A stretch of DNA of 51,450 bases from Deltaproteobacteria bacterium GWB2_55_19 (GTDB lineage: Bacteria; Desulfobacterota; GWC2-55-46). Location of the stretch: NCBI GenBank assembly GCA_001797465.1, contig MGPQ01000005.1, positions 159,032-210,481 on the forward strand, in the 5' to 3' direction. This document shows positions 9,861-23,885 of this stretch, one piece after another (position 1 is the first letter of the stretch; each line of letters opens with the position of its first letter). The notes beneath the pieces are model-generated. The model searched no databases. It had not been told where the DNA came from and saw only the letters and a list, made by a program, of their open reading frames with translations. Position numbers and translations under genes: made by a program.

Positions 9861-10661
9861 TCAGTGGCAACACCCCTGATGCGTAAGCTCCCTTAAGGCG
9901 ATGATCTCTTCGTTGAACGCGCCCCTCTCCTCATTAACCCGCTTCACCATCTCGGCTATCGGGACGGGCGTAAACTCCGCCTCTATCTTCCTCATCCCCT
10001 CGGCGAGGTCTCTCCGCATCGCCTTGTCAAGGCACTTGTCGACCATCTCGAAGAACTCCTGGTCCTCTTTCCTTATATGCCCCTTGAGAGAGACGATCAT
10101 GGAGGTTATGATGCCGTCAAGGATGGTCTCCTCCTCGAGGGCGTTGCGGAAGTTCGAGAGGAGCGACATGATTTCCCTGTGCTCCTCCTTTATGATCTCG
10201 GTAAGGGACTCCCCGAACGCCACGACACCCCTCATCGCCGGAAAGAGTACCTCCTCCTCCTTGAGCCCCGAGTGGAGGTGAATGGCGTTGGCGAGCTCAT
10301 AGGTTGAGACCCAGAGGGCTTTGATGTCGCGCCTCTTGACCTGCTCCTCAACCTCCTCGAACTTCCGAATAATCTGCCTGTGCTCGAGGATGAGTGTGCC
10401 GATGGGGTCGTTCTCGTCGAGCCACTGTTCCTCTGCCCCGTTGGACTCGGGCGCGATCCTGACGAGCTCCCTCACCTTGAATGGCCTGGAGAACCCGAGC
10501 TTACAGAAGCCCTTCGGGCTCCTGAAGAGCTCGGGGTCATCGTATGCGGCCTTTAGCTCCTTGAAAAGGTCCTCGTAAACGGCTATGGTACCCTCGCGGC
10601 AGTTGGCGCAGCATGTACCCTGCGTGCAACGGTACTTTATCTCTATTTTAAGATTTGACAT
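9861..10661 (-). CDS. Hemerythrin-like (HHE) di-iron protein with Cys-rich ends
   Basis: 266 residues, soluble. The central part is a hemerythrin/HHE helical bundle with candidate iron ligands H94 (LEHRQI), H128/H130 with E134-E136 (HLHSGLKEEE), H161 (EEHREIM) and H195 with the acidic residues after it (GHIRKEDQEFFE). Upstream of the bundle is a 70-residue region with four clustered Cys (C12, C17, C18, C21) and C53. The protein ends in HQGCCH, which could bind a further metal. HHE proteins bind oxygen or NO, or serve Fe-S repair. Its place in the nar region and its gene pairing with a DUF2299-type protein (28-bp gap) make a role in nitric oxide or oxygen stress during nitrate respiration reasonable, but this is inference. 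Confidence 0.8.
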   Translation of the reverse strand: MSNLKIEIKYRCTQGTCCANCREGTIAVYEDLFKELKAAYDDPELFRSPKGFCKLGFSRPFKVRELVRIAPESNGAEEQWLDENDPIGTLILEHRQIIRKFEEVEEQVKRRDIKALWVSTYELANAIHLHSGLKEEEVLFPAMRGVVAFGESLTEIIKEEHREIMSLLSNFRNALEEETILDGIITSMIVSLKGHIRKEDQEFFEMVDKCLDKAMRRDLAEGMRKIEAEFTPVPIAEMVKRVNEERGAFNEEIIALRELTHQGCCH

Positions 10662-10689
10662 TGGAATGACCTCCTCCTCGCCGGTGCTA

Positions 10690-11202
10690 TCAGGCGTGGC
10701 CTACGGTCTCGCCCTTATTAGCGGAGGGCATGACCGGCATGCCGAACTCGTCGTTGAACTTCGTTATTATGTAAAGTAGCGTCCTGTGATTCAGGAGGAG
10801 CCCCTCGTAGAGCTTGGTCTTTGTGAGGCTGTCGACGTAGAACTCATATGAGAACTGGACCTGCTTGGCCACGCCATGATCGTCCAGGTTCATATCGTAG
10901 GAGTTCTGCAGGAAGATGAGGTCCTTCCTTATCTCGCCGTAGAACGCGTCGCGGTCGTTCTCGTTCATCTTCTTAATCTTCTCCATGTGCTCGTTTGCGA
11001 TGGCGACACCGTTAAGGAGCACGATAAGCCCGGGGTAGTCCTTGGGCTGGATGACCCTCTGCCTCTTCATCGAACCGAGGGGATAATCGACCTCAAGGTG
11101 GAAATTAACGTTGTCGTCCTTGATGTCGGTCACCTGGTGGTGGTTCTCCTCAAGCCACTTCTTTATGATTTCCTTCGCCTGCTCCGTGGTAGTATTCTCC
11201 AT
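10690..11202 (-). CDS. DUF2299-like conserved hypothetical protein
   Basis: 170 residues, cytoplasmic. The N-terminal helix EIIKKWLEEN, the NFHLEVDYPLG strand, the QPKDYPGLIVLLNGV core and a C-terminal helical section (FSYEFYVDSLTKTKLYEGLL) match what I remember of DUF2299 (PF10061), a family without assigned function; the assignment is from memory. The ATG at 11202 has GGAGAGG just upstream. It is followed by the hemerythrin-like gene on the same strand, so the two are probably co-transcribed. Confidence 0.65.
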   Translation of the reverse strand: MENTTTEQAKEIIKKWLEENHHQVTDIKDDNVNFHLEVDYPLGSMKRQRVIQPKDYPGLIVLLNGVAIANEHMEKIKKMNENDRDAFYGEIRKDLIFLQNSYDMNLDDHGVAKQVQFSYEFYVDSLTKTKLYEGLLLNHRTLLYIITKFNDEFGMPVMPSANKGETVGHA

Positions 11203-11310
11203 TTAAGCCTCTCCTGAATATGATTTATCCCTGTATTTGGGTGTATTTTATCTTACTACAATGCGAGGGCTGTTGTCCAGTCCAAAGAGCCGTTTTCACA
11301 TATTTTGGCC

Positions 11311-11352
11311 CAAAAAATGAACAGGGCCGACCCCTCTTGGGGCCGGCCCTGT
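11311..11352 (-). terminator. Terminator of the DUF2769-type gene
   Basis: ACAGGGCCGACCCC (11321-11334), loop TCTT, GGGGCCGGCCCTGT (11339-11352): a 14-bp stem with one mismatch. On minus it is followed by TTCATTTTTTGG. It separates the DUF2769-type gene from the DUF2299/hemerythrin pair, which therefore probably has its own promoter. Confidence 0.8.
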
Positions 11353-11398
11353 CCTGTCGAATAATACGGGCCGCCGTCTGTCTAAAGGCGATACGTCT

Positions 11399-11719
11399 TT
11401 AGCCGCCCCCGCCCTGGTCGGATATGCCCTCGACCTTCAGGGCCTGGCAGACCTGGGAACACCTCGTGCAATAGAATGTGTGGGTGAGCTCATATTCCTT
11501 ATAGATCGCGCATGTCTGGCAGACGCAGTCCTTTTCCCACTGTATCTTCTTTGAGGTGCCGATGAGCGGAAAACAGTACCCCGTGGGGGCGTCGCCCGCC
11601 ACGTATGTCGGGCAAGCCGGGCACTTGCACTTCTTAAGGACATAATCCTGACGCTTCTGGTACTCCGCCTTCTCCATCTTCTCGATGCCGAACTTGTCGA
11701 TCCTGTCGTACTTGCCCAT
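11399..11719 (-). CDS. DUF2769-like cysteine-rich small protein
   Basis: 106 residues with ten or more Cys arranged as CKCPAC, GYCFP, CVCQTC, YCTRC and QVC, the pattern I associate with DUF2769; the family has no firmly known function and probably binds zinc or an Fe-S cluster. I start at the ATG at 11719 because AAGGAGGT lies between it and an earlier in-frame ATG at 11734, which would place the ribosome site inside the gene. Ends in a run of glycines. It lies 264 bp downstream of the nitrate transporter, beyond that gene's terminator, and may respond to the same signals. Confidence 0.7.
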   Translation of the reverse strand: MGKYDRIDKFGIEKMEKAEYQKRQDYVLKKCKCPACPTYVAGDAPTGYCFPLIGTSKKIQWEKDCVCQTCAIYKEYELTHTFYCTRCSQVCQALKVEGISDQGGGG

Positions 11720-11905
11720 TTGTACCTCCTTCATGGTTTACGCCGCCTTGGCGGCAAAAGTCTCAAATATAGACAACTCAAATCAAGGCCTCTGTATGCA
11801 TGGAATATATCGGGGTTAATGGAAATCGTCAAGTGAGACAGACGCATATTTTTGGATAGGTTTGAAAGGGGCGCATTGCATGTTGGATGACAGGCCTGTT
11901 AGAGC

Positions 11906-11983: not shown

Positions 11984-13684
11984 CTACTGGCCCTGCCAGG
12001 ACCCCTTGGCCTTGTCCCACCATGTGCCGCCGGAGTTGCCGTAGTCATATCTCTCCGCGCCCTTACGGGTGTAGTACCACCAGTTGAGGAAGTTGGCATA
12101 CGCGTAGAAGACTGCGGCGCCGATGAAGAACGGCACAGCGCTGCCGTACTTGGTAATGGAAGCGCCAATGAGGCTTGTGAATATAAACGGGCCGAATGCG
12201 GCCCAAGCGCCGGTCCATCCGAGCATCTGCGCGCCCTTGGCCGGCGAATACGCGAACACTATTGGGTACTGGCGGAAGGTCGCCGCGTTGGCTATGCCGG
12301 TCATGAGGAATATCCATAGCATTATCAGGACAAACCCGGTGAACGACTCAAGCCCGGTCGGCTTAAGGAACCCGCCGAATACAAGGGCCAGACATCCGAT
12401 GATCTGCCCTATGAAGCACCACAACATGCCCTTTGACCCGCCCCACTTGTCGAATATAGGGCCGGTTAACGCGCGGGATAAACCGCCGATTAGCGGGCCG
12501 AGGTACGCGTACTGCAACGCGTCAGGCGCGCCGTCAAAACCGCCGTAGATGGTCTTGATCATTATCGGGAACGCGGCCGCATAACCGGAGAACGAACCGA
12601 ATGATGCGATATAGGTTACTGTGCAGTTCCAGGTATGCGTCAGCGCCCTGTCCTTGGTGCTGAGTATTTCAAACTGTTTCTTGAAGCCGCCGCTCTTGAC
12701 ACCGAGCGCGGCCGGGTCGATGCTTCTCAGCAACAACACGCAGAGTATGAAGGCCACGATGAGGAAAGGTACGTACCAGAACGCGGCGTTCTGTACCCAC
12801 ATGCCCTTCTTTATCACATTCTTGACCGTTACATCAGTGATTGCGCCGGCGTCGTTTCTCTTGACCTCTACCTTTACGCCTTTAGCAGTCCTTACTTCCG
12901 TAATGGCGCCCTTATCGTTTCTCGTTACATCTTCCTTTATAGCCTTGATGGTATCGGTCTCCTGAAGGACCACGTCCTTCAGCACGCCGCCTTCTTTTAC
13001 GACCATTACAGCGGGGATCCACTCAGGCTTGTTGATCACTACGTCAGTAACAACGCCGTTGTCCTTGATAACCGTTATCGCGCCCTTGATCGCATCGGCC
13101 TTCGTGAATAACTGCGGGCCGCCGGCTATCGCGCCGAGGACTGCGCCGCCGATGATGACGGGGGTTACGAACTGGACTACGCTAACGCCGAAGTTGCCTA
13201 TGCCGGCCTGGAGGCCCATGGCGAGGCCCTGGAGCCTCTTCGGGAAAAAGATGGAGGTGGAAGGCATATAGGAGGAGAAGTCGCCGCCGCCCATCCCGGT
13301 AAGGAACCCGATTATCATGAACGTGCCCCAGGTCGTGTTAAGGTCCTGCACCGCGTAGCCAAGCCAGACCATCGGTATGAGCTTGATGATCGTCGCTATG
13401 CTTACGACCGGCCTTGTCCCGAGTATTGGGATGAAGAATGAGTGAATGAGCCTCAATATGCCGGAAGCGAACCCGGGTATCGCCGCGAGCCAGAAGAGCT
13501 CCATGGTTGTGAACTTGAAGCCTATGGCGGGAAGCCTCACGACCACGGCGCTCATGACGAACCACGTGGCGAATGAGAATATCAGCGAGAACGTGGTTAC
13601 GCCGCATGTGCGCCACGCTATCCCGCTGGCGGTTTCGCGCCAGAACTGTTCATTCTCCGGCTGCCATTTTGTCAGTTTTGCCAT
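11984..13684 (-). CDS. narK: NarK-type nitrate/nitrite MFS transporter with a periplasmic repeat insert
   Basis: 566 residues. Start is the ATG at 13684 (MAKLTKWQPENEQFW) with AGGAG upstream; an earlier Met at 13789 adds 35 unrelated residues. It aligns by eye with E. coli NarK along the first five helices, including the TM2 arginine (ILRLIHSF, R78), the nitrate-signature glycines (AGIGNFGVSVVQ, 160-171) and the second arginine (GLSRALTG). Between TM5 and TM6 (about residues 194-294, nt 12803-13105) it carries a hydrophilic insert absent from E. coli NarK. The insert is built of four units of the form V-x-V-x-(2)-[DN]-x-G-x-[IV]-x-[DE]-V. By NarK topology this loop is periplasmic. Role: nitrate uptake and nitrite exchange for NarG. 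It follows narI on the same strand but has its own upstream region. Confidence 0.9.
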   Translation of the reverse strand: MAKLTKWQPENEQFWRETASGIAWRTCGVTTFSLIFSFATWFVMSAVVVRLPAIGFKFTTMELFWLAAIPGFASGILRLIHSFFIPILGTRPVVSIATIIKLIPMVWLGYAVQDLNTTWGTFMIIGFLTGMGGGDFSSYMPSTSIFFPKRLQGLAMGLQAGIGNFGVSVVQFVTPVIIGGAVLGAIAGGPQLFTKADAIKGAITVIKDNGVVTDVVINKPEWIPAVMVVKEGGVLKDVVLQETDTIKAIKEDVTRNDKGAITEVRTAKGVKVEVKRNDAGAITDVTVKNVIKKGMWVQNAAFWYVPFLIVAFILCVLLLRSIDPAALGVKSGGFKKQFEILSTKDRALTHTWNCTVTYIASFGSFSGYAAAFPIMIKTIYGGFDGAPDALQYAYLGPLIGGLSRALTGPIFDKWGGSKGMLWCFIGQIIGCLALVFGGFLKPTGLESFTGFVLIMLWIFLMTGIANAATFRQYPIVFAYSPAKGAQMLGWTGAWAAFGPFIFTSLIGASITKYGSAVPFFIGAAVFYAYANFLNWWYYTRKGAERYDYGNSGGTWWDKAKGSWQGQ

Positions 13685-13898: not shown

Positions 13899-14597
13899 TT
13901 ACTTGTACTGTACGATATTCTCGGTCTGCGGTGTCCTCTTGTACCACCTGACGACCTGGTAAGGCCTTACGAGGTACTTGTAAGGGTTCAATACCACGAA
14001 GTGGGCGAGCCTTGAGAACGGGATGAAGCCGATGAATATCAAAGCGTTGAAGATATGGACCTTGGTTATGAGGGGAAGCGTGGCCACATAATCGACGTTC
14101 GGGTTGAGCTTAAGGATCGACCAGATCCACGGTACAGCCGCTCCGGCGTACCAGTTGGAGCCCCACCTGTACATGGTGGCGTTAAGGACGCCCGTCACAA
14201 CCTGTATGAGGAGGACGATGAGTATGAGCACGTCCCAGGAGCTGGTAAGGGCCTTGACCCTGGAGTTCGTGAGCCTCCTGTAGATGAGGGCGAGGAGACC
14301 GAAGAGCGCCAGGAACCCGCACGAGAGCGCGGTGAGCTCAAGTATGTAGAGCCTTACCGGAGCTCCGTTCCACGCAAGGATCGCGCTCGGGAAGAATATC
14401 CCGAATATGTGTCCGAGAAGGATCGTTATGATCCCGTAGTGCCAGGGAAACGACCCGAAGAACAGGGTCTTGTTCTCCAGGAACTGCGAGGACTGCGACG
14501 ACCATGTGTATGCGTTGCTTTTGAATCTCCATATCGCGCCGACTATTGCTGTAAAGATCAGCACGTACGGCATTGCGCCGAACAGGACCTTATCCAT
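13899..14597 (-). CDS. narI: Respiratory nitrate reductase gamma subunit (cytochrome b)
   Basis: 232 residues with five membrane helices. The four haem-ligand histidines of NarI are present in the right spacing: H53 (PWHYG), H63 (LLGHIFG), H181 (KVHIFNA) and H199 (RLAHFVV), compared with 56/66/187/205 in E. coli. It oxidises quinol at the periplasmic side and passes electrons through two b haems to NarH. The ATG overlaps the narJ stop (TAATG). Last gene of the narGHJI block. Confidence 0.97.
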   Translation of the reverse strand: MDKVLFGAMPYVLIFTAIVGAIWRFKSNAYTWSSQSSQFLENKTLFFGSFPWHYGIITILLGHIFGIFFPSAILAWNGAPVRLYILELTALSCGFLALFGLLALIYRRLTNSRVKALTSSWDVLILIVLLIQVVTGVLNATMYRWGSNWYAGAAVPWIWSILKLNPNVDYVATLPLITKVHIFNALIFIGFIPFSRLAHFVVLNPYKYLVRPYQVVRWYKRTPQTENIVQYK

Positions 14598-15145
14598 TAT
14601 TTAGCCTCCTTAACATCCTTTTCTATGACTCTGTATATGGCACTTATCACGTGGAAATATATGCTCTTTCTGTTCTTTTCGAAGTTCTTGTAGAGCTTCT
14701 CCATCCCCATGATCACGAACGATTCCCTGAAGTCCTTCTTAAGGGCCTCGTCCTTGACTAAACCCAGGAAATGAAGCATGACAGGCAGATGGTCCGGAAG
14801 CTCGCCCTTGGCAAACGCGTCGAAAGGGAAACCGTTCTCATTGTACATCGACTTTATCGCGGAGAGCTTGCTCGCCCTCTTGAAGCCGTCGTAGATATGG
14901 TATCCCATGTCGAGCGTGAAGTCCGAGGTAAGCTCGAAGGTGTAGGAGTATACCCCTTGAAGATCATCAAGGGGTATCTCCTCCAAATCCTTCTGGAATT
15001 TCTTGAGCTCTTCCACAGACTCTGCCGGGTGGCCAGGCAGGGAGGAGAGCGTCTTTACGCACTCCTCGGCCTTAAGCTTTATATCCTCTTTCGGATATTC
15101 AAGCAACCCCGCAAGCTGTGTATATAAGCTCTTTTCCATGACCAT
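14597..15145 (-). CDS. narJ: Nitrate reductase assembly chaperone
   Basis: 182 residues, all-helical, TorD/NarJ family. It shows the typical start (LYTQLAGLLEYP), the central ELTSDFTLDMGYHIYDGF segment with DLPVML-like continuation (LPDHLPVMLHFLGL) and its usual position between narH and narI. NarJ binds apo-NarG and holds it for molybdenum cofactor insertion; it is not part of the finished enzyme. Start at 15145, three bases after the narH stop; a second ATG at 15139 is possible. Confidence 0.95.
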   Translation of the reverse strand: MVMEKSLYTQLAGLLEYPKEDIKLKAEECVKTLSSLPGHPAESVEELKKFQKDLEEIPLDDLQGVYSYTFELTSDFTLDMGYHIYDGFKRASKLSAIKSMYNENGFPFDAFAKGELPDHLPVMLHFLGLVKDEALKKDFRESFVIMGMEKLYKNFEKNRKSIYFHVISAIYRVIEKDVKEAK

Positions 15146-15148
15146 CGC

Positions 15149-16669
15149 CTACCAGGTCCTCCCAAGGAACTCCTTCTTCTTAGGACCGAAGCCGACGGAG
15201 CCCCTCTTCTCGTACATGGTCCTCGGGTCCACCGTCGTCATGTGCTCGCGGTGGGTCTCGGGGATCACGAACCTCTCCTGGAAGGTACCGAGCGAGGTAA
15301 GTCTGTAGATGTCCTCTGCGTCCTGCGGGGTGAGCCCGACGGACGAAAGGACGCTCTTCGCCTTGGAGTCGCCGATGTCGCCGACCCTCTTCTGGCGTAT
15401 GTAGATACGGACGGCCATCTGCTTCTTCAGCGATTCGAGTACTACCTGCTCGTTGCCAGCCGAGAGCATGTTGGCAAGGAATCTTACAGGTATCCTCATC
15501 TTGTCTATCTCGTTGAAGAACTCGGTCGACTCGGGGTCGAACGTGCCGCCGTTTTCAGCCTTCGCGTTGTGGAGTATCGGCGAAAGAGGCGGTATGTAGA
15601 AGTTCATCGGAACGGTCCTGAACTCGGGGTGGTTCGGCATCGCTATGCGCCACTTCTTGAAGAGGTTGTACGCAGGCGACTGCTGAGCGGCCCTTAGCCA
15701 GTTCTCGTCGATGCCGGCCTTCCTGGCTTCTTCGATTACCCTCGGGTCGTTCGGGTCGAGGACTATCTCCCTCATCGCCTCGACGAGCCTGTCGTCTGGG
15801 GTCTTGGCGACGTCTTCGATCCTGTCGGCGTCATAGAGGAGCGCGCCAACGAACCTGATCCTGCCGGTGCATGCGTGCGCGCAGGCGTTCGGCTGGCCGG
15901 TCTCGGTCCTGGGGTAGCAGAATATGCACTTCTCACTCTTGCCGTTCGCCCAGTTGTAGTAGGGCTTTTTGTACGGGCAGGCGCTCACGCAGAATCTCCA
16001 GGCCCTGCAGGTATCCTGGTCGATGAGCACGATGCCGTCCTCGCCCCTCTTGTATATCGCGCCTGACGGGCAGGACGCGACGCACGCGGGGTTCAGGCAG
16101 TGGTTGCATATCCGCGGGAGGTAGAAGAAGAAGAGCTTGTGGAACTTGGTGAGCATCTCCTTCTGCGATTCCGACAGACCCTTAAGGTTCGGGTCGTTCG
16201 CGGCGTACAAGGGGCTTCCGGCCATGTCGTCGTCCCAGTTCGGGCCGAGGACTATCTTCTCCATGAACTCGCCGGTGATGAGCGACTTAGGCCTCGCAGT
16301 CGGCTGGTCGTCTCCGGCCGGCGCGTTGAAGAGGTTCTGGTAGTCGTAGGTGAACGGCTCGTAGTAGTCGTCCACGGTCGGCAGGTTCGGCTGGAAGAAG
16401 ATGTTCGCCAGCGTCCTGATCTTGCCGGGGCCTTTGAGGAGCTTCAACCTCAAGGACCCGCCGGAGACCTCCCAGCCGCCCCTGTACCTCTCCTGGTCTT
16501 CCCAGGTGAGGGGGTAGCCGGCGCCGGGCTTGGTCTCAACGTTGTTCCACCACATGTACTCGGCACCCCTGCGGGATGTCCACACGTTCTTGCAGGACAC
16601 GCTGCAGGTGTGGCAGCCGATGCACTTGTCCATGTGAAAACTCATCGATAACTGAGCTCTTATATCCAT
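15149..16669 (-). CDS. narH: Respiratory nitrate reductase beta subunit (four Fe-S clusters)
   Basis: 506 residues from the ATG at 16669, which overlaps the narG stop (TAATG) and lies 9 nt after GGAGGT; a GTG two codons earlier is closer to the site and less likely. Cluster motifs visible: C16-x2-C-x2-C-x3-C (CIGCHTCSVSC), CNHCLNPACVASCPSG, CRAWRFCVSACPYKK and KCIFCYPR with the following ACAHAC. The third has the Trp-for-Cys pattern that makes the NarH [3Fe-4S] centre. It carries electrons from NarI to NarG. Length matches the family. Confidence 0.97.
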   Translation of the reverse strand: MDIRAQLSMSFHMDKCIGCHTCSVSCKNVWTSRRGAEYMWWNNVETKPGAGYPLTWEDQERYRGGWEVSGGSLRLKLLKGPGKIRTLANIFFQPNLPTVDDYYEPFTYDYQNLFNAPAGDDQPTARPKSLITGEFMEKIVLGPNWDDDMAGSPLYAANDPNLKGLSESQKEMLTKFHKLFFFYLPRICNHCLNPACVASCPSGAIYKRGEDGIVLIDQDTCRAWRFCVSACPYKKPYYNWANGKSEKCIFCYPRTETGQPNACAHACTGRIRFVGALLYDADRIEDVAKTPDDRLVEAMREIVLDPNDPRVIEEARKAGIDENWLRAAQQSPAYNLFKKWRIAMPNHPEFRTVPMNFYIPPLSPILHNAKAENGGTFDPESTEFFNEIDKMRIPVRFLANMLSAGNEQVVLESLKKQMAVRIYIRQKRVGDIGDSKAKSVLSSVGLTPQDAEDIYRLTSLGTFQERFVIPETHREHMTTVDPRTMYEKRGSVGFGPKKKEFLGRTW

Positions 16670-19600
16670 TACCACTTCACCTCCTGATTTCTCATTTTTC
16701 TCACCAACACTGTGGTGTCCCTGATGATCGGGATCGGGCCCCAGCCGTTAAAGGCGTAGGAGAACTGCCCGTAGCCGCCGGTCATGAGGGTCGGCTTCAG
16801 ACGCTGTCTGGTGAGCGAGTTGTGGAATCCGCCCCTGATCTTGTTCCTCTGCTCCGCCTTCGGGATGTTGATGGTCCTCTCCTGAGAGTGGTACGCGAAG
16901 CAGGTGCCGGTCGGGATCCTGGCGCTTACTACGGCGCGGCAGACGAATATACCGTTGTCGTTGTAAGCCTCCACCCAGTCGTTGTCCTTTATGCCGACGC
17001 TCTCGGCGTCCTTGTCGTTAACCCAGCAGGAGTTGCCTCCGCGGGACAGGGTCAACATCCTAAGGTTGTCGTAGTGTGTCGAGTGTATCGCCCACTTGCT
17101 GTGCGGGGTGATGTAGTTGAGCATAAGAGCGTCGGTCTTATCCGACTTCTGGAGCTCGTTCATCCTCGCCGGGTTCAGCTTGTACTTATGGGCGCACAAC
17201 CCCTCGCCGTACTCGAGGAATATCGGGTGGTCGAGGTAGAAGTGCTGTTTGCCCGTAAGCGTCCTCCAGGGCACCCTGCGCTCGGTCTGGATGGTCCAGG
17301 TGCCGTACGCGCGGCCCTTCCTGTTGTCGCCGGTCCAGAGGGCGCTGGTGAGCCACCTTCTCGGCTGGGCTACGATGTCGTCGTAGGTGACCGTGAAGTT
17401 CCTGTCCGGGCCCGCGATCTCCTCGGCAAGGCCGTGCGCGCCAGCCCTGAACTCGACCTCGGGGTATATCTCTCTGACGGCCTTCTTCGCCGCGTCGTAA
17501 GTCTCGGCGTGGAGACCGGTGTGGTGCTCTTCCTCAACCCACTGCCTGTAGCCCACTTCACCGTTGGTCGTGCCGGAGAAGGCCATGACAAAGTTGCAGG
17601 CCTCCTTGGCGGTCCTGATGGAGATGAACTTCTGGCCGTTGAAGTCGACGGAGTCTATGTGCTCCTGCTTCAGGTAGTTCTCGTAGAGGTCCTTGCCGTC
17701 GAGCATGATCCCGTGGAACCCGTACTTGCCCTTCATGAGCGGGCCGACCGAGATGTACTGCTTGTCGATGTTGGCGTAATCCCTCTCGACCACGCTGATG
17801 GACGGCATGGTCTTGCCGGGTATCGCCTCGCACTGGCCCTTCTTCCAGTCCTGTACGCCGTTAAGCGCGGGCTGGGCGATCTCGCCGGGGGTGTCATGTC
17901 CAAGCGGAGCGGTCATGACCTCCTTTACCGGCCTCGGGAAGTGCTTCTTGGCTATCTCGGCGAACTTCTCCGAGAGGAACCTGTATGCGTCGTAATCGCT
18001 CTTCGACTCCCAGTTCGGCTGTACGGCCGCGCCCATCGGGTGGATGAAGGAGTGGAGCTCTGTCGTGTTGATGTCTTCCTTCTCATACCAGTGGGCCGCC
18101 GGGAGCACGATGTCGCAGTACGTCGGGGTCGTGTTCATACGCATGTTAAGGTCGACGAGAAGGTCGAGCTTTCCAAGCGGGGACTCCCTGTACTTGAGCT
18201 CTTTCAGGTACGGCTTGGCAACTTCCTCGGTTACGAGGTTGTTGTGGGTGCCGAGGAGGAACTTGAAGAAGTACTCCTGGCCTCTGGCGCTGGAGCCGAG
18301 CGCGTTAGCCCTCCAGATCAACCAGACTCTCGGCCAGTTCTCCGGGGCGTCCGGGTCTGCGATGGCGAAGTCGAGAGTGCCGCTCTTAAGCTGCTTCACG
18401 ACATAGTCCACGACGTCGGCGTCTGTCTTGGCGCCGGACCTCTGGGCCTCATCGTAGAGCGCTATCGAGCTCTTGTTGAACTGCGGGTAACCTGGCATCC
18501 AGCCGAGCCTTACCGACCTTACGGCGTAGTCGGCGGTGTGCTGGTACTCAAGCGCGGACTTGTCCGGGACGACGTGGTAGTCGGTTATCGCAGAGTCGTA
18601 CTTGAACTGCTGAGTGTGGAGATACCAGTTGATCGGGTTGGACATGAGTCTCGGGGGCCTTACCCAGTCGAGCGAGTGGGCGATCTGACCCCAGGAGTCG
18701 AACGGGGCGAGCTTTTCCTGTCCGACGTAGTGCTGGAGACCGCCGCCGTTCCTTCCGACGCAACCGCAGAGCATAAGGGCGTTCATGCCCGATCTGTACA
18801 TGAGGTCGGAGTGGTACCAGTGGTTGAACGAGGCGCCGCAGATGATCATCGAGCGGCCCTTCGTCACCTCGGCGTTGGAGGCGAACTCCCTGCCGACCTG
18901 GATGATGGTGTCCCTGCCGATGCCGGTGTACTTCTCCTGCCATGCAGGCGAGAAGCCCCTGTCGTCATCGTAGTTCTTGCAGTAGTCGCCGGAAAGGCCC
19001 TTTCTGCCGACGCCGCAATGCGCCATGTAGAGGTCGAATACCGTGGTTACGGGTGTCCTGCCTTCCTTGGTCTCCACGTACTTAACGGGCACCTGCCTCT
19101 TGTATCTCTCGGGCTTGTCGAGCTCGTGGAATACGACCTCGATAGCGTCGTCCTTTATGTCAAGGAGGGTAAGGGCCGGGGAGATGTCCTCGCCGGTCTT
19201 GCCGTCCTTAAGGAGCGTGTTCCACTTGCCGTGGCTCTCGTGCTTCTGGGGGTACCTGTAACCCATACCGCCGTTCACTACGCGGGCCTTGCCGGTCTTC
19301 TCGTCCCACATGCAGAACTTCCACTCCGGGTTGTCCTCTTCGGCGTAGGCGGCCAGATCGCAGGCCTTGAGATAGCGGCCGAGCTCGTAGCCGTCCTTGC
19401 CCTTCGTTAGCTTAACGAGGTTCGGCAGGTCGGTGTAGTTCTTGCAATATACGTCAAAGTACGGCGTCTTCTTGTCGACGAAGTACTCCTTCAGGATGAC
19501 ATGGTTCACGCCGAGCCAGAAGGCCGTGTCGGAACCTGTCTTCAAAGGCACCCAGAGGTCGGCGTACTTGGTGACCTGTGAGTAGTCCGGGGCGCAAACG

Positions 19601-20388
19601 ACGAGCTTGGCGCCGCCCATCCTGAGCTCGGAGACGAAGTGCGCGTCCGCGGTCCTGGTCATGTTCGGGTTCGCGCCGTTCATGACTACGTAGCCGGCGT
19701 TGTACCAGTCCGCGCTTTCGCACGAGTCGGTCTGCTCGCCCCATACCTCGGGTTCCGCGTTCGGCAGGTCGGTGTAATAGTCGTAGAAGCTAAGATGCAC
19801 GCCGCCGATGAGCTGGTTGTAGCGGGCGCCGGAGGTGTAGCTGATCTGGCTCATGGCCGGGATCGGTGAGAAGGCTATGTTCCTGTCCGGACCGTACTTC
19901 TTTATGGTGTAGATCTGGGCCGAGACGATGATCTCGGCGGCGGTGTCCCAATCGAACCTGCGGAATCCGCCCTTGCCCCTCGACCACTTTATCTTCTTGG
20001 AGAGCTCTGCGTTCTCGACGATCGACCTCCAGGCGTCAACGGGGTCGGCGTGCTTCGACCTCGCTTCCTTCCAGGCGTCGATGACGATGCCCCTGACGTA
20101 GGGGTACTTGATCCTTACCGGGCTGTAAACGTACCAGGAGGCGGATATGCCCCTCTGGCAGCCGCGCGGCTCGTAAGGCGGCAGAGACTGGTCGAGCTTC
20201 GGGTAGTCAACGGCCTGGAGCTCCCAGGTGATGATGCCGTCCTTTACGTATACCATCCAGGAGCAGCCGCCGGTGCAGTTGTTGCCGTGCGTAGACCTTA
20301 CGGTCTTGTCGTACTGCCAGCGGTTCCTGTAGAACTCTTCCCATCCCCTTTTACCGGGGTTGATTTCATCCTGTATCCAGTTAGACAT
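16669..20388 (-). CDS. narG: Respiratory nitrate reductase alpha subunit (Mo-bisMGD catalytic)
   Basis: 1239 residues, the usual length. The N-terminal FS0 cluster motif H34-x3-C38-x3-C42-x34-C77 (THGNNCTGGC ... RGCQRG) is intact, and the Mo-ligand aspartate is D221 in GEQTDSCESADWYN. Long stretches match E. coli NarG by eye (YGPDRNIAFSPIPAMS, GRSMIICGASFNHWYH, PWRTLTGKQHFYLDH). No twin-arginine leader is visible, so the active site should face the cytoplasm, unlike the archaeal-type exported enzymes. Start ATG 20388 has AAGGAGG in front and follows the cytochrome c gene without a gap. Reaction: nitrate + 2e + 2H+ to nitrite and water. Confidence 0.98.
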   Translation of the reverse strand: MSNWIQDEINPGKRGWEEFYRNRWQYDKTVRSTHGNNCTGGCSWMVYVKDGIITWELQAVDYPKLDQSLPPYEPRGCQRGISASWYVYSPVRIKYPYVRGIVIDAWKEARSKHADPVDAWRSIVENAELSKKIKWSRGKGGFRRFDWDTAAEIIVSAQIYTIKKYGPDRNIAFSPIPAMSQISYTSGARYNQLIGGVHLSFYDYYTDLPNAEPEVWGEQTDSCESADWYNAGYVVMNGANPNMTRTADAHFVSELRMGGAKLVVCAPDYSQVTKYADLWVPLKTGSDTAFWLGVNHVILKEYFVDKKTPYFDVYCKNYTDLPNLVKLTKGKDGYELGRYLKACDLAAYAEEDNPEWKFCMWDEKTGKARVVNGGMGYRYPQKHESHGKWNTLLKDGKTGEDISPALTLLDIKDDAIEVVFHELDKPERYKRQVPVKYVETKEGRTPVTTVFDLYMAHCGVGRKGLSGDYCKNYDDDRGFSPAWQEKYTGIGRDTIIQVGREFASNAEVTKGRSMIICGASFNHWYHSDLMYRSGMNALMLCGCVGRNGGGLQHYVGQEKLAPFDSWGQIAHSLDWVRPPRLMSNPINWYLHTQQFKYDSAITDYHVVPDKSALEYQHTADYAVRSVRLGWMPGYPQFNKSSIALYDEAQRSGAKTDADVVDYVVKQLKSGTLDFAIADPDAPENWPRVWLIWRANALGSSARGQEYFFKFLLGTHNNLVTEEVAKPYLKELKYRESPLGKLDLLVDLNMRMNTTPTYCDIVLPAAHWYEKEDINTTELHSFIHPMGAAVQPNWESKSDYDAYRFLSEKFAEIAKKHFPRPVKEVMTAPLGHDTPGEIAQPALNGVQDWKKGQCEAIPGKTMPSISVVERDYANIDKQYISVGPLMKGKYGFHGIMLDGKDLYENYLKQEHIDSVDFNGQKFISIRTAKEACNFVMAFSGTTNGEVGYRQWVEEEHHTGLHAETYDAAKKAVREIYPEVEFRAGAHGLAEEIAGPDRNFTVTYDDIVAQPRRWLTSALWTGDNRKGRAYGTWTIQTERRVPWRTLTGKQHFYLDHPIFLEYGEGLCAHKYKLNPARMNELQKSDKTDALMLNYITPHSKWAIHSTHYDNLRMLTLSRGGNSCWVNDKDAESVGIKDNDWVEAYNDNGIFVCRAVVSARIPTGTCFAYHSQERTINIPKAEQRNKIRGGFHNSLTRQRLKPTLMTGGYGQFSYAFNGWGPIPIIRDTTVLVRKMRNQEVKW

Positions 20389-21024
20389 TTACCTTCCTCC
20401 TTTTCCGCCGTAATTTCTCCATAAGGCATCGTGGGCGGTGCCCTTGTTCCTGTTCCTGTACCTTCCGCTCCAGATTATGTTGAATAAGATCAGTATGCCT
20501 ATGAAGCCGCCAATGCCCACGATCGTGAAGGTCCCGGTCGAAGAGGGGGCCACGTTGCCCTGAGACTGCTTGGCGAAGAACGCCCTCAGGTGCCCTACCT
20601 CGTCGTCGGAGACCGGCCTGTTGGAGAATACAGTGCCCATTACGGGGGTCGACGGGTTGTTGATCCACGCCGAATTGATGAGCGGGTTCTTCGACTCGTC
20701 GGCATACACCTTCGTCAGGTTCGGCCCGAGCACTCCGCCGCCCAGGGCGCCGACACTCGCGCTGTGGCACGAGATGCACGGAGGCGCTCCGCTTGCGAAC
20801 CTCTTGCCGCCCGTGAAGTAGAGCTCGCCAAGTCTCGCGTCACCAGGCTCTGCAGGGACCGGAGCCGCCTCGACAGCAGGCGCCGCTTCAGCCGTTGCAA
20901 CAGCCGGGGCCGGAGTGGCCTGGTCAGCGGCCTCGACCGTCACGACAGCTCCCGTGACGAGGAACGCGGCCAAACCGAGTTGCAGCCCTTTCCAGAAAAC
21001 TCTTTTACAACTCTTTAAATCCAT
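20389..21024 (-). CDS. Monoheme c-type cytochrome with C-terminal membrane anchor, first gene of nar operon
   Basis: 211 residues in this order: signal peptide (LQLGLAAFLVTGAVVTVEA, to about 32), an Ala/Pro-rich linker (33-60), a class I cytochrome c domain with one haem site C83-I-S-C86-H87 and likely distal ligand M129 (TPVMGTVF), then one membrane helix (about 166-185) and a basic tail inside the cell. The haem faces the periplasm. It abuts narG with no spacer, so it is a true operon member. It could feed electrons to, or draw them from, the NarI side, comparable in position though not in architecture to the NarC of Thermus (from memory). AAGGAGGTGT lies upstream of the ATG. Confidence 0.92.
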   Translation of the reverse strand: MDLKSCKRVFWKGLQLGLAAFLVTGAVVTVEAADQATPAPAVATAEAAPAVEAAPVPAEPGDARLGELYFTGGKRFASGAPPCISCHSASVGALGGGVLGPNLTKVYADESKNPLINSAWINNPSTPVMGTVFSNRPVSDDEVGHLRAFFAKQSQGNVAPSSTGTFTIVGIGGFIGILILFNIIWSGRYRNRNKGTAHDALWRNYGGKGGR

Positions 21025-22649: not shown

Positions 22650-23885
22650 ATGGCAAACTTCAAGACATTTTTAAAGGCTGGTCACCCTCCGACCCTGTTC
22701 GCCTCGTTCCTGTACTTCGATTTCTGCTTTGCAATTTGGGTGCTAAACGGTGCCATGGCCCCGTTCATCAGCGAGGCCTTCGCCCTGACACCTGCACAGA
22801 AGGGCTTCATGATCTCGGTGCCTATCATGTCAGGCGCCATCATGAGGTTCCCGCTGGGCGTTTTATCGCAGTACATCGGGAGGAAGCGGGCCGCGCTCGT
22901 CGAGATGGGTCTCATACTCGTAGCGATGATCTACGGCTACATGGCGGTAAGCACCTATAACGACGTGCTCGCCATGGGCGTCCTCCTCGGTATCGCAGGC
23001 GCGAGCTTCGGTGTTGCGCTCTCGCTCGGTTCCGGCTGGTTCCCCCCGCAGTACAAGGGCCTTGCGATGGGTATAGCGGGCGCGGGAAATAGCGGCACGG
23101 TCCTCGCCGTCCTCCTCGCCCCTCCCCTTGCCACGTCGTACGGCTGGCAGACCGTCTACGGTTTCGCGGCGCTCACCATGATCATCCCGTTCCTCGTAAT
23201 GCTCATATTCGCCAAGGAGCCACCGGACAGGAGCGACGACCACAGCCTCAAAGAAATGCTCAAGTGCCTCGTCGAGAAGGACGGCTGGGTCTTCAACGCC
23301 ATCTACATCATCACCTTCGGCGGGTTCATAGGCCTGTCCAACTTCCTGCCGACCTACTTCCACGACCAGTACGGCGTAACCAAGATACAGGCCGGACAGC
23401 TCACGATGCTCGCGGCGGTCATGGGTAGCGGCATACGCATCCTCGGCGGCTACGTCTCCGACAGGTGGGGCGGCATCAACTCGCTCACCCTCGTATTCGT
23501 CATGGTCACGATCCTCATGTTCATAAACGCTTCAATTCCGTCGATCACGGCCACAACGATACTCTTCATGTGCACCTTCGCCTTCCTCGGCATGGGCAAC
23601 GGCTCGCTCTTCCAGCTCGTCCCGCTCCGCTGGCCGGTAACGACGGCGGTCGCCGGCTCCATGATAGGCGAGATAGGCGCGCTCGGCGGCGGCTTCATCC
23701 CGAACGCGATGGGCATCTCCAAGCAGTACTACGGCTCCTTCTCCTACGGCTTCATAGCCTTCGGCGTCTTCTCAGCGCTGGTATTCATAGTCCTCCGGGT
23801 CGCCCAGCGCCGCTGGACCCGCACCTGGGTCGGCAAGGGCGGCAAGGCCCTTGAGAACGTCCAGGAAGTCAAGACCTACTCCTAA
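22650..23885 (+). CDS. narK: NarK/NasA-type nitrate MFS transporter
   Basis: 411 residues with 12 membrane helices. TM2 arginine in GAIMRFPLGVLSQYIGRK and a second in GSGIRILGGYVSDRWGG; nitrate-signature glycines GIAGAGNSGTVLAVLLAPPLA and GSMIGEIGALGGGFIPNA. No extra domain, in contrast to the 566-residue paralogue at 11984-13684, so the two probably differ in mechanism (NarK1-like nitrate/proton uptake versus NarK2-like nitrate/nitrite exchange is the usual pairing, not proven here). ATG 22650 with GGAGAGAAGGAG in front. It is transcribed divergently from the nar operon. Confidence 0.92.
   Translation: MANFKTFLKAGHPPTLFASFLYFDFCFAIWVLNGAMAPFISEAFALTPAQKGFMISVPIMSGAIMRFPLGVLSQYIGRKRAALVEMGLILVAMIYGYMAVSTYNDVLAMGVLLGIAGASFGVALSLGSGWFPPQYKGLAMGIAGAGNSGTVLAVLLAPPLATSYGWQTVYGFAALTMIIPFLVMLIFAKEPPDRSDDHSLKEMLKCLVEKDGWVFNAIYIITFGGFIGLSNFLPTYFHDQYGVTKIQAGQLTMLAAVMGSGIRILGGYVSDRWGGINSLTLVFVMVTILMFINASIPSITATTILFMCTFAFLGMGNGSLFQLVPLRWPVTTAVAGSMIGEIGALGGGFIPNAMGISKQYYGSFSYGFIAFGVFSALVFIVLRVAQRRWTRTWVGKGGKALENVQEVKTYS

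Follow-up and report, generated by a model that had tools for sequence, protein, structure and literature searches.

The window analysed here, the whole 51,450-nucleotide stretch of DNA from Deltaproteobacteria bacterium GWB2_55_19, contains a nar cluster in which the genes are arranged in the order cytochrome c, narGHJI, transporter, DUF2769, DUF2299 and hemerythrin. The narGHJI genes (13899..20388, reverse strand) were placed by gene order, which is kept in relatives, and their subunits were named by sequence reading: narG (16669-20388), narH (15149-16675), narJ (14597-15145) and narI (13899-14597), each on the reverse strand. Directly downstream of narI is the gene for a NarK-type MFS nitrate/nitrite transporter of 566 aa (11984..13684, reverse strand), which is the host of the insert described below. 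The first gene of the cluster (20389..21024, reverse strand) encodes a one-heme (CISCH) cytochrome c with a C-terminal membrane anchor; both N-terminal and C-terminal hydrophobic segments are present, and no Pfam match was found at E 0.01. The DUF2769, DUF2299 and hemerythrin genes after the transporter (9861-11734) occupy the same place in several relatives. A second NarK-type gene (22650-23885; 411 aa, without the insert) is located upstream of the nar cluster on the opposite strand, with a universal stress protein gene after it.

The layout of the cluster resembles the nar operon of Thermus thermophilus, in which narCGHJI is followed by two NarK-type genes, NarK and NarT (PMC6394727); the order from narH on was observed here. 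The Thermus NarK and NarT proteins have 443 aa and lack the insert, whereas the window host has 566 aa and carries it. In a Thermus nar operon, the position of the window's DUF2769, DUF2299 and hemerythrin genes is taken by DUF2249 genes together with one for a protoglobin.

In a profile search, the host protein matched TIGR00886 with E 4.7e-67 and 226.6 bits, which is under the curated NCBIfam cut-off of 311.7 bits that serves as naming threshold; it is therefore termed NarK-type here, and not a certified TIGR00886 member. The insert is not the cause of this shortfall, since the score was 236.3 bits after its removal and 274.7 bits for an insert-less paralogue. With regard to structure, the best seven PDB matches of the host were all E. 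coli NarK-type entries (Z 42.7-44.9; next match, 35.1), including the VIA match to 4jre (Z 44.9, rmsd 2.2, 382 residues). The substrate-site residues of E. coli NarK (R89, F147, N175, Y263, F267 and R305) are all identical in the 41 of 41 orthologues with the insert (R78, F136, N164, Y358, F362 and R404 in host numbering) and are also kept in 9/9 insert-less relatives. Given this unaltered transport core, the host protein, whose gene adjoins narGHJI, is expected to transport nitrate/nitrite.

Anatomy of the inserted beta-domain

NarK is the textbook nitrate/nitrite exchanger and is pictured as a bare 12-helix bundle, in which the N and C termini are cytoplasmic and the TM5-TM6 loop is periplasmic. 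In the window host, this loop contains an inserted beta-domain (residues 194-294; 12803..13105, reverse strand). Translation of this segment returned the residues given by the original prediction, and alignment upheld its claim that they lie between TM5 and TM6 and are missing from E. coli NarK: the alignment covers host residues 3-184 and resumes from 295, with 14 residues of E. coli NarK in between (196-209 of 4u4t). As E. coli NarK has only these ~14 residues where the host has ~110, about 96 residues are extra in the host loop. The periplasmic location, which had been deduced from NarK topology, is supported and is consistent with the structural match to E. coli NarK.

The insert had been described as four related units sharing the pattern V-x-V-x-x-[DN]-x-G-x-[IV]-x-[DE]-V, each with two short strands around a turn. 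The four related units were recovered, whereas the literal pattern fits none of them. All are on the reverse strand: hairpin unit 1 (residues 203-216, ITVIKDNGVVTDVV; 13037..13078; model strands 203-208 and 211-217), unit 2 (residues 226-239, VMVVKEGGVLKDVV; 12968..13009; model strands 226-231 and 234-240), unit 3 (residues 252-265, DVTRNDKGAITEVR; 12890..12931), which is missing in three-unit relatives, and unit 4 (residues 272-285, VEVKRNDAGAITDV; 12830..12871; model strands 267-276 and 282-292). A relaxed hairpin pattern gave 3 non-overlapping matches in the insert; of 20,000 shuffled versions, 9 had two such matches and not one had three. Aligned to itself, the insert gave a top score of 68, whereas 500 shuffled versions gave 27 ± 5 and never more than 46. 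Chance or low complexity as the source of the repeats is ruled out by these shuffles. Units 3 and 4 also form a repeat at the DNA level (48 nt, 75% identical, 63 nt spacing), which is the pattern expected from internal duplication. No array was detected in the insert by Tandem Repeats Finder, because the units are too divergent.

When the insert was modelled alone, AlphaFold2 predicted nine strands with pLDDT 93.8 and pTM 0.77, values that are to be read in view of the shallow alignments (33-40 rows) and of the over-confidence that AlphaFold2 can have on beta-repeat folds. Hairpins were formed at units 1, 2 and 4, and shorter strands at unit 3. In the model of the whole protein, strands were present in all four units, with pLDDT ~80 except at unit 3, where it was lower, and the joints flanking the insert (178-196 and 293-300) were of low confidence, as for a tethered domain. 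Two short strands around a turn in each unit are thus supported by AlphaFold2, those of unit 3 being shorter, and the insert of the 566-residue protein is predicted to be folded, not a disordered loop. Based on these models, the insert is probably a well-folded domain. Where relatives have extra residues, most of these lie in the unit 1 turn or in the stretches that separate the units, as expected for hairpins. Several insert residues outside the repeats are conserved, E242, K247, K292 and K293 among them.

Nothing convincing was found for a known domain in Pfam, NCBIfam, PDB sequence, Foldseek (PDB and viral library) or VIA searches. In Pfam and NCBIfam, the window insert had no match near a curated cut-off, and the inserts of other members gave scattered weak matches. 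Foldseek found nothing above noise for the insert model in the PDB (best E 1.3) and VIA gave a best Z of 2.5 on Foldseek's candidates, such absence of a match being no proof of a new fold. The search of the viral model library by Foldseek also had no insert match above noise.

Distribution and evolution of the insert

We identified 40 further orthologues with the insert, so that all 41 sampled orthologues carry it. Their hosts belong to at least three phyla and include deltaproteobacterial metagenome-assembled genomes from the group to which the window belongs, as well as Desulfuromonadaceae, Nitrospirota and Betaproteobacteria (Gallionella, Sulfurimicrobium and Hydrogenophilales); different kinds of narG are present in their nar loci. 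A frame or assembly error is ruled out, as the insert is in frame in all 41 orthologues, which come from many different assemblies. The transporter orthologue of L018 (G021) has one in-frame TAG within the insert region. In Nitrospirota, 8/8 close matches carry the insert, and two matches without it are distant (46-48%). Some insert-bearing genomes also have tandem paralogues of 440 residues that lack the insert and show an empty site (FTKGEIV followed directly by KDIWLQN). Being missing from these paralogues and confined to a single clade on the transporter tree, the insert is not a general feature of NarK, and searches of an open-access literature library found no description of periplasmic insertions in NarK.

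Profile searches were extended to ~1,370 genomes sampled from the phylum of the window, one order of Betaproteobacteria, the phylum of the Nitrospirota genome and one further class. Matches to the insert were confined to NarK-sized frames, plus one frame of 351 aa that may be a fragment. Other NarK-type hosts were thus found, as had been suggested for checking, with no free-standing copy among these genomes. The viral contigs and plasmids searched likewise contained no copies, neither free-standing nor phage-borne.

On a transporter tree built without the insert columns, the presence of the insert corresponds to one change (support 100/99), so that it has a single origin on this tree. No loss was observed among close orthologues, and the insert is under purifying selection, with dN/dS mostly 0.06-0.34. 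Unit number varies: 22 of the 41 orthologues have three units and 19 have four. On the transporter-body tree, seven changes of unit number are needed, at least four of them forced, and the body data reject one single three-unit clade. On the insert's own tree, one change is enough. Even when this tree was restricted to the 85 columns shared by the two forms, the three-unit inserts made up one side of a branch with SH-aLRT 92, a grouping that was picked after the sequences had been seen. By AU tests, the body and insert trees are each rejected by the other data (p 0.0003 and 9e-7). For several close pairs, synonymous divergence in the insert is about twice that in the rest of the gene (e.g., 0.66 vs 0.31), and for other pairs the two do not differ; the protein sequence of the insert also evolves faster than the transporter body in several close pairs.

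Because seven changes of unit number compare with one and the two trees reject each other, the insert appears to have moved between transporters. The simplest reading is that inserts were probably exchanged between transporter genes by recombination. Convergence associated with unit number may account for part of the conflict between the body tree and the insert tree, the latter being based on 85 columns.

Possible roles of the insert

His is not conserved in the insert, Cys is almost absent, aromatic residues are few and the net charge averages +2.8, so that no obvious metal, heme or anion site is present; metal or heme binding was rejected for want of conserved Cys or His. The sensing or capture of nitrate or nitrite that the original prediction put forward as a possible role would thus have no evident binding site in the domain. 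In one relative (L012:1495-3249; insert 2290-2691), the turn of the first hairpin is lengthened by a two-cysteine segment, VDCKVKGAKC. These are the sole cysteines in any insert and possibly form a disulphide, which would fit an oxidising compartment.

The best explanation overall, which we consider to fall just short of probable, is that the insert is an exchangeable folded beta-domain that serves as a tethered interaction module on an intact NarK-type transporter. Its anatomy and evolution we put forward with high confidence: a predicted folded domain of ~80-125 residues, made up of three or four repeated beta-hairpins in the periplasmic TM5-TM6 loop, which would have arisen once, grown through hairpin duplication and later been swapped between transporters by recombination. 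The insert is modular, folded and lineage-specific, and the transporter that carries it is a familiar one. Tethered to the N-terminal bundle, the module may interact with some other part of the envelope or with another copy of the transporter, and take no part in nitrate chemistry. This interaction role is tentative; it is a best guess that draws on the modularity of the insert, its loose joints and the missing binding site, features that are not peculiar to such a role.

Several MFS proteins with outer domains are known. SV2A and SV2B are eukaryotic MFS-fold proteins with a luminal beta-domain, which is of pentapeptide-repeat type and lies between other helices than the insert of the host; in VIA, they were listed with Z 30-32 for the MFS part. 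PepT1 and PepT2 have a folded extracellular domain in an outer MFS loop that is independent of transport and binds trypsin (PMC4597091). Like the host, these transporters carry a folded beta-domain in an outer loop, but theirs consists of two immunoglobulin-like folds in mammalian proteins, whereas the insert model had no PDB match above noise in Foldseek. In mycobacteria, the periplasmic TM11-TM12 extensions of Rv1410 and MHAS2168 work with a periplasmic partner, which is LprG for Rv1410 (PMC10576003). These are also periplasmic extensions on a bacterial MFS transporter, although they are helical extensions of TM11-12 and serve lipid transport. By analogy with the PepT1/PepT2 domain and the Rv1410 extensions, an interaction module is favoured.

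One alternative, which appears somewhat unlikely, is that the domain lies over the periplasmic mouth as a lid or regulator and alters how fast the transporter opens or whether it prefers nitrate or nitrite. The insert is joined directly to TM5 and TM6, and the insert-less tandem paralogue of some genomes could differ in kinetic role, in the way that Thermus NarK and NarT split preferences (PMC6394727). However, the joints are of low confidence in the model, the core site is unchanged whether three or four units are present, and inserts were apparently swapped between transporter bodies. Unlikely, too, is a near-neutral decoration, that is, an expansion of the loop that can fold and is merely kept from disturbing the transporter. 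Such a decoration would suit the variable unit number and turn lengths and the protein sequence that in several close pairs changes faster than the body, but not the dN/dS values mostly well below 0.35, the lack of losses among close orthologues or the conserved non-repeat residues. It is quite improbable, in our view, that an undescribed repeat-hairpin domain, possibly with a new fold, is passed between nitrate transporters as a cassette and diversifies more quickly than they do because it meets a changing periplasmic partner; if true, this partner might be an envelope protein specific to the host or a factor used for entry by phages or toxins.

Outside the Desulfuromonadaceae-like group, all 13 of the tested hosts from Deltaproteobacteria and Nitrospirota have the cytochrome of the locus (E 1e-51 or better). 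Among Betaproteobacteria that carry the insert, six had no detectable homologue and two more gave only weak matches (28-32%). In the readable betaproteobacterial loci, where the transporter adjoins an insert-less NarK-type gene and a narG that is just 45-47% identical, no cytochrome was seen beside narGHJI. Docking of this periplasmic cytochrome to the insert, a role proposed in the original prediction, would couple transport to nitrate reduction. It is therefore disfavoured as the general role of the domain and is improbable, and NarG moreover reduces nitrate on the cytoplasmic side.

A NarK clade found among environmental nitrate reducers from several phyla has a conserved and apparently exchangeable outer domain, and the genomes with both insert-bearing and insert-less tandem copies offer a clean natural case for the roles of accessory domains in bacterial MFS proteins. 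The NarK-type proteins of L031, L032 and L039:7536-9143 (~535-584 aa) have no TM5-TM6 insert and contain additional hydrophobic segments after TM6, perhaps making up 14 transmembrane helices.
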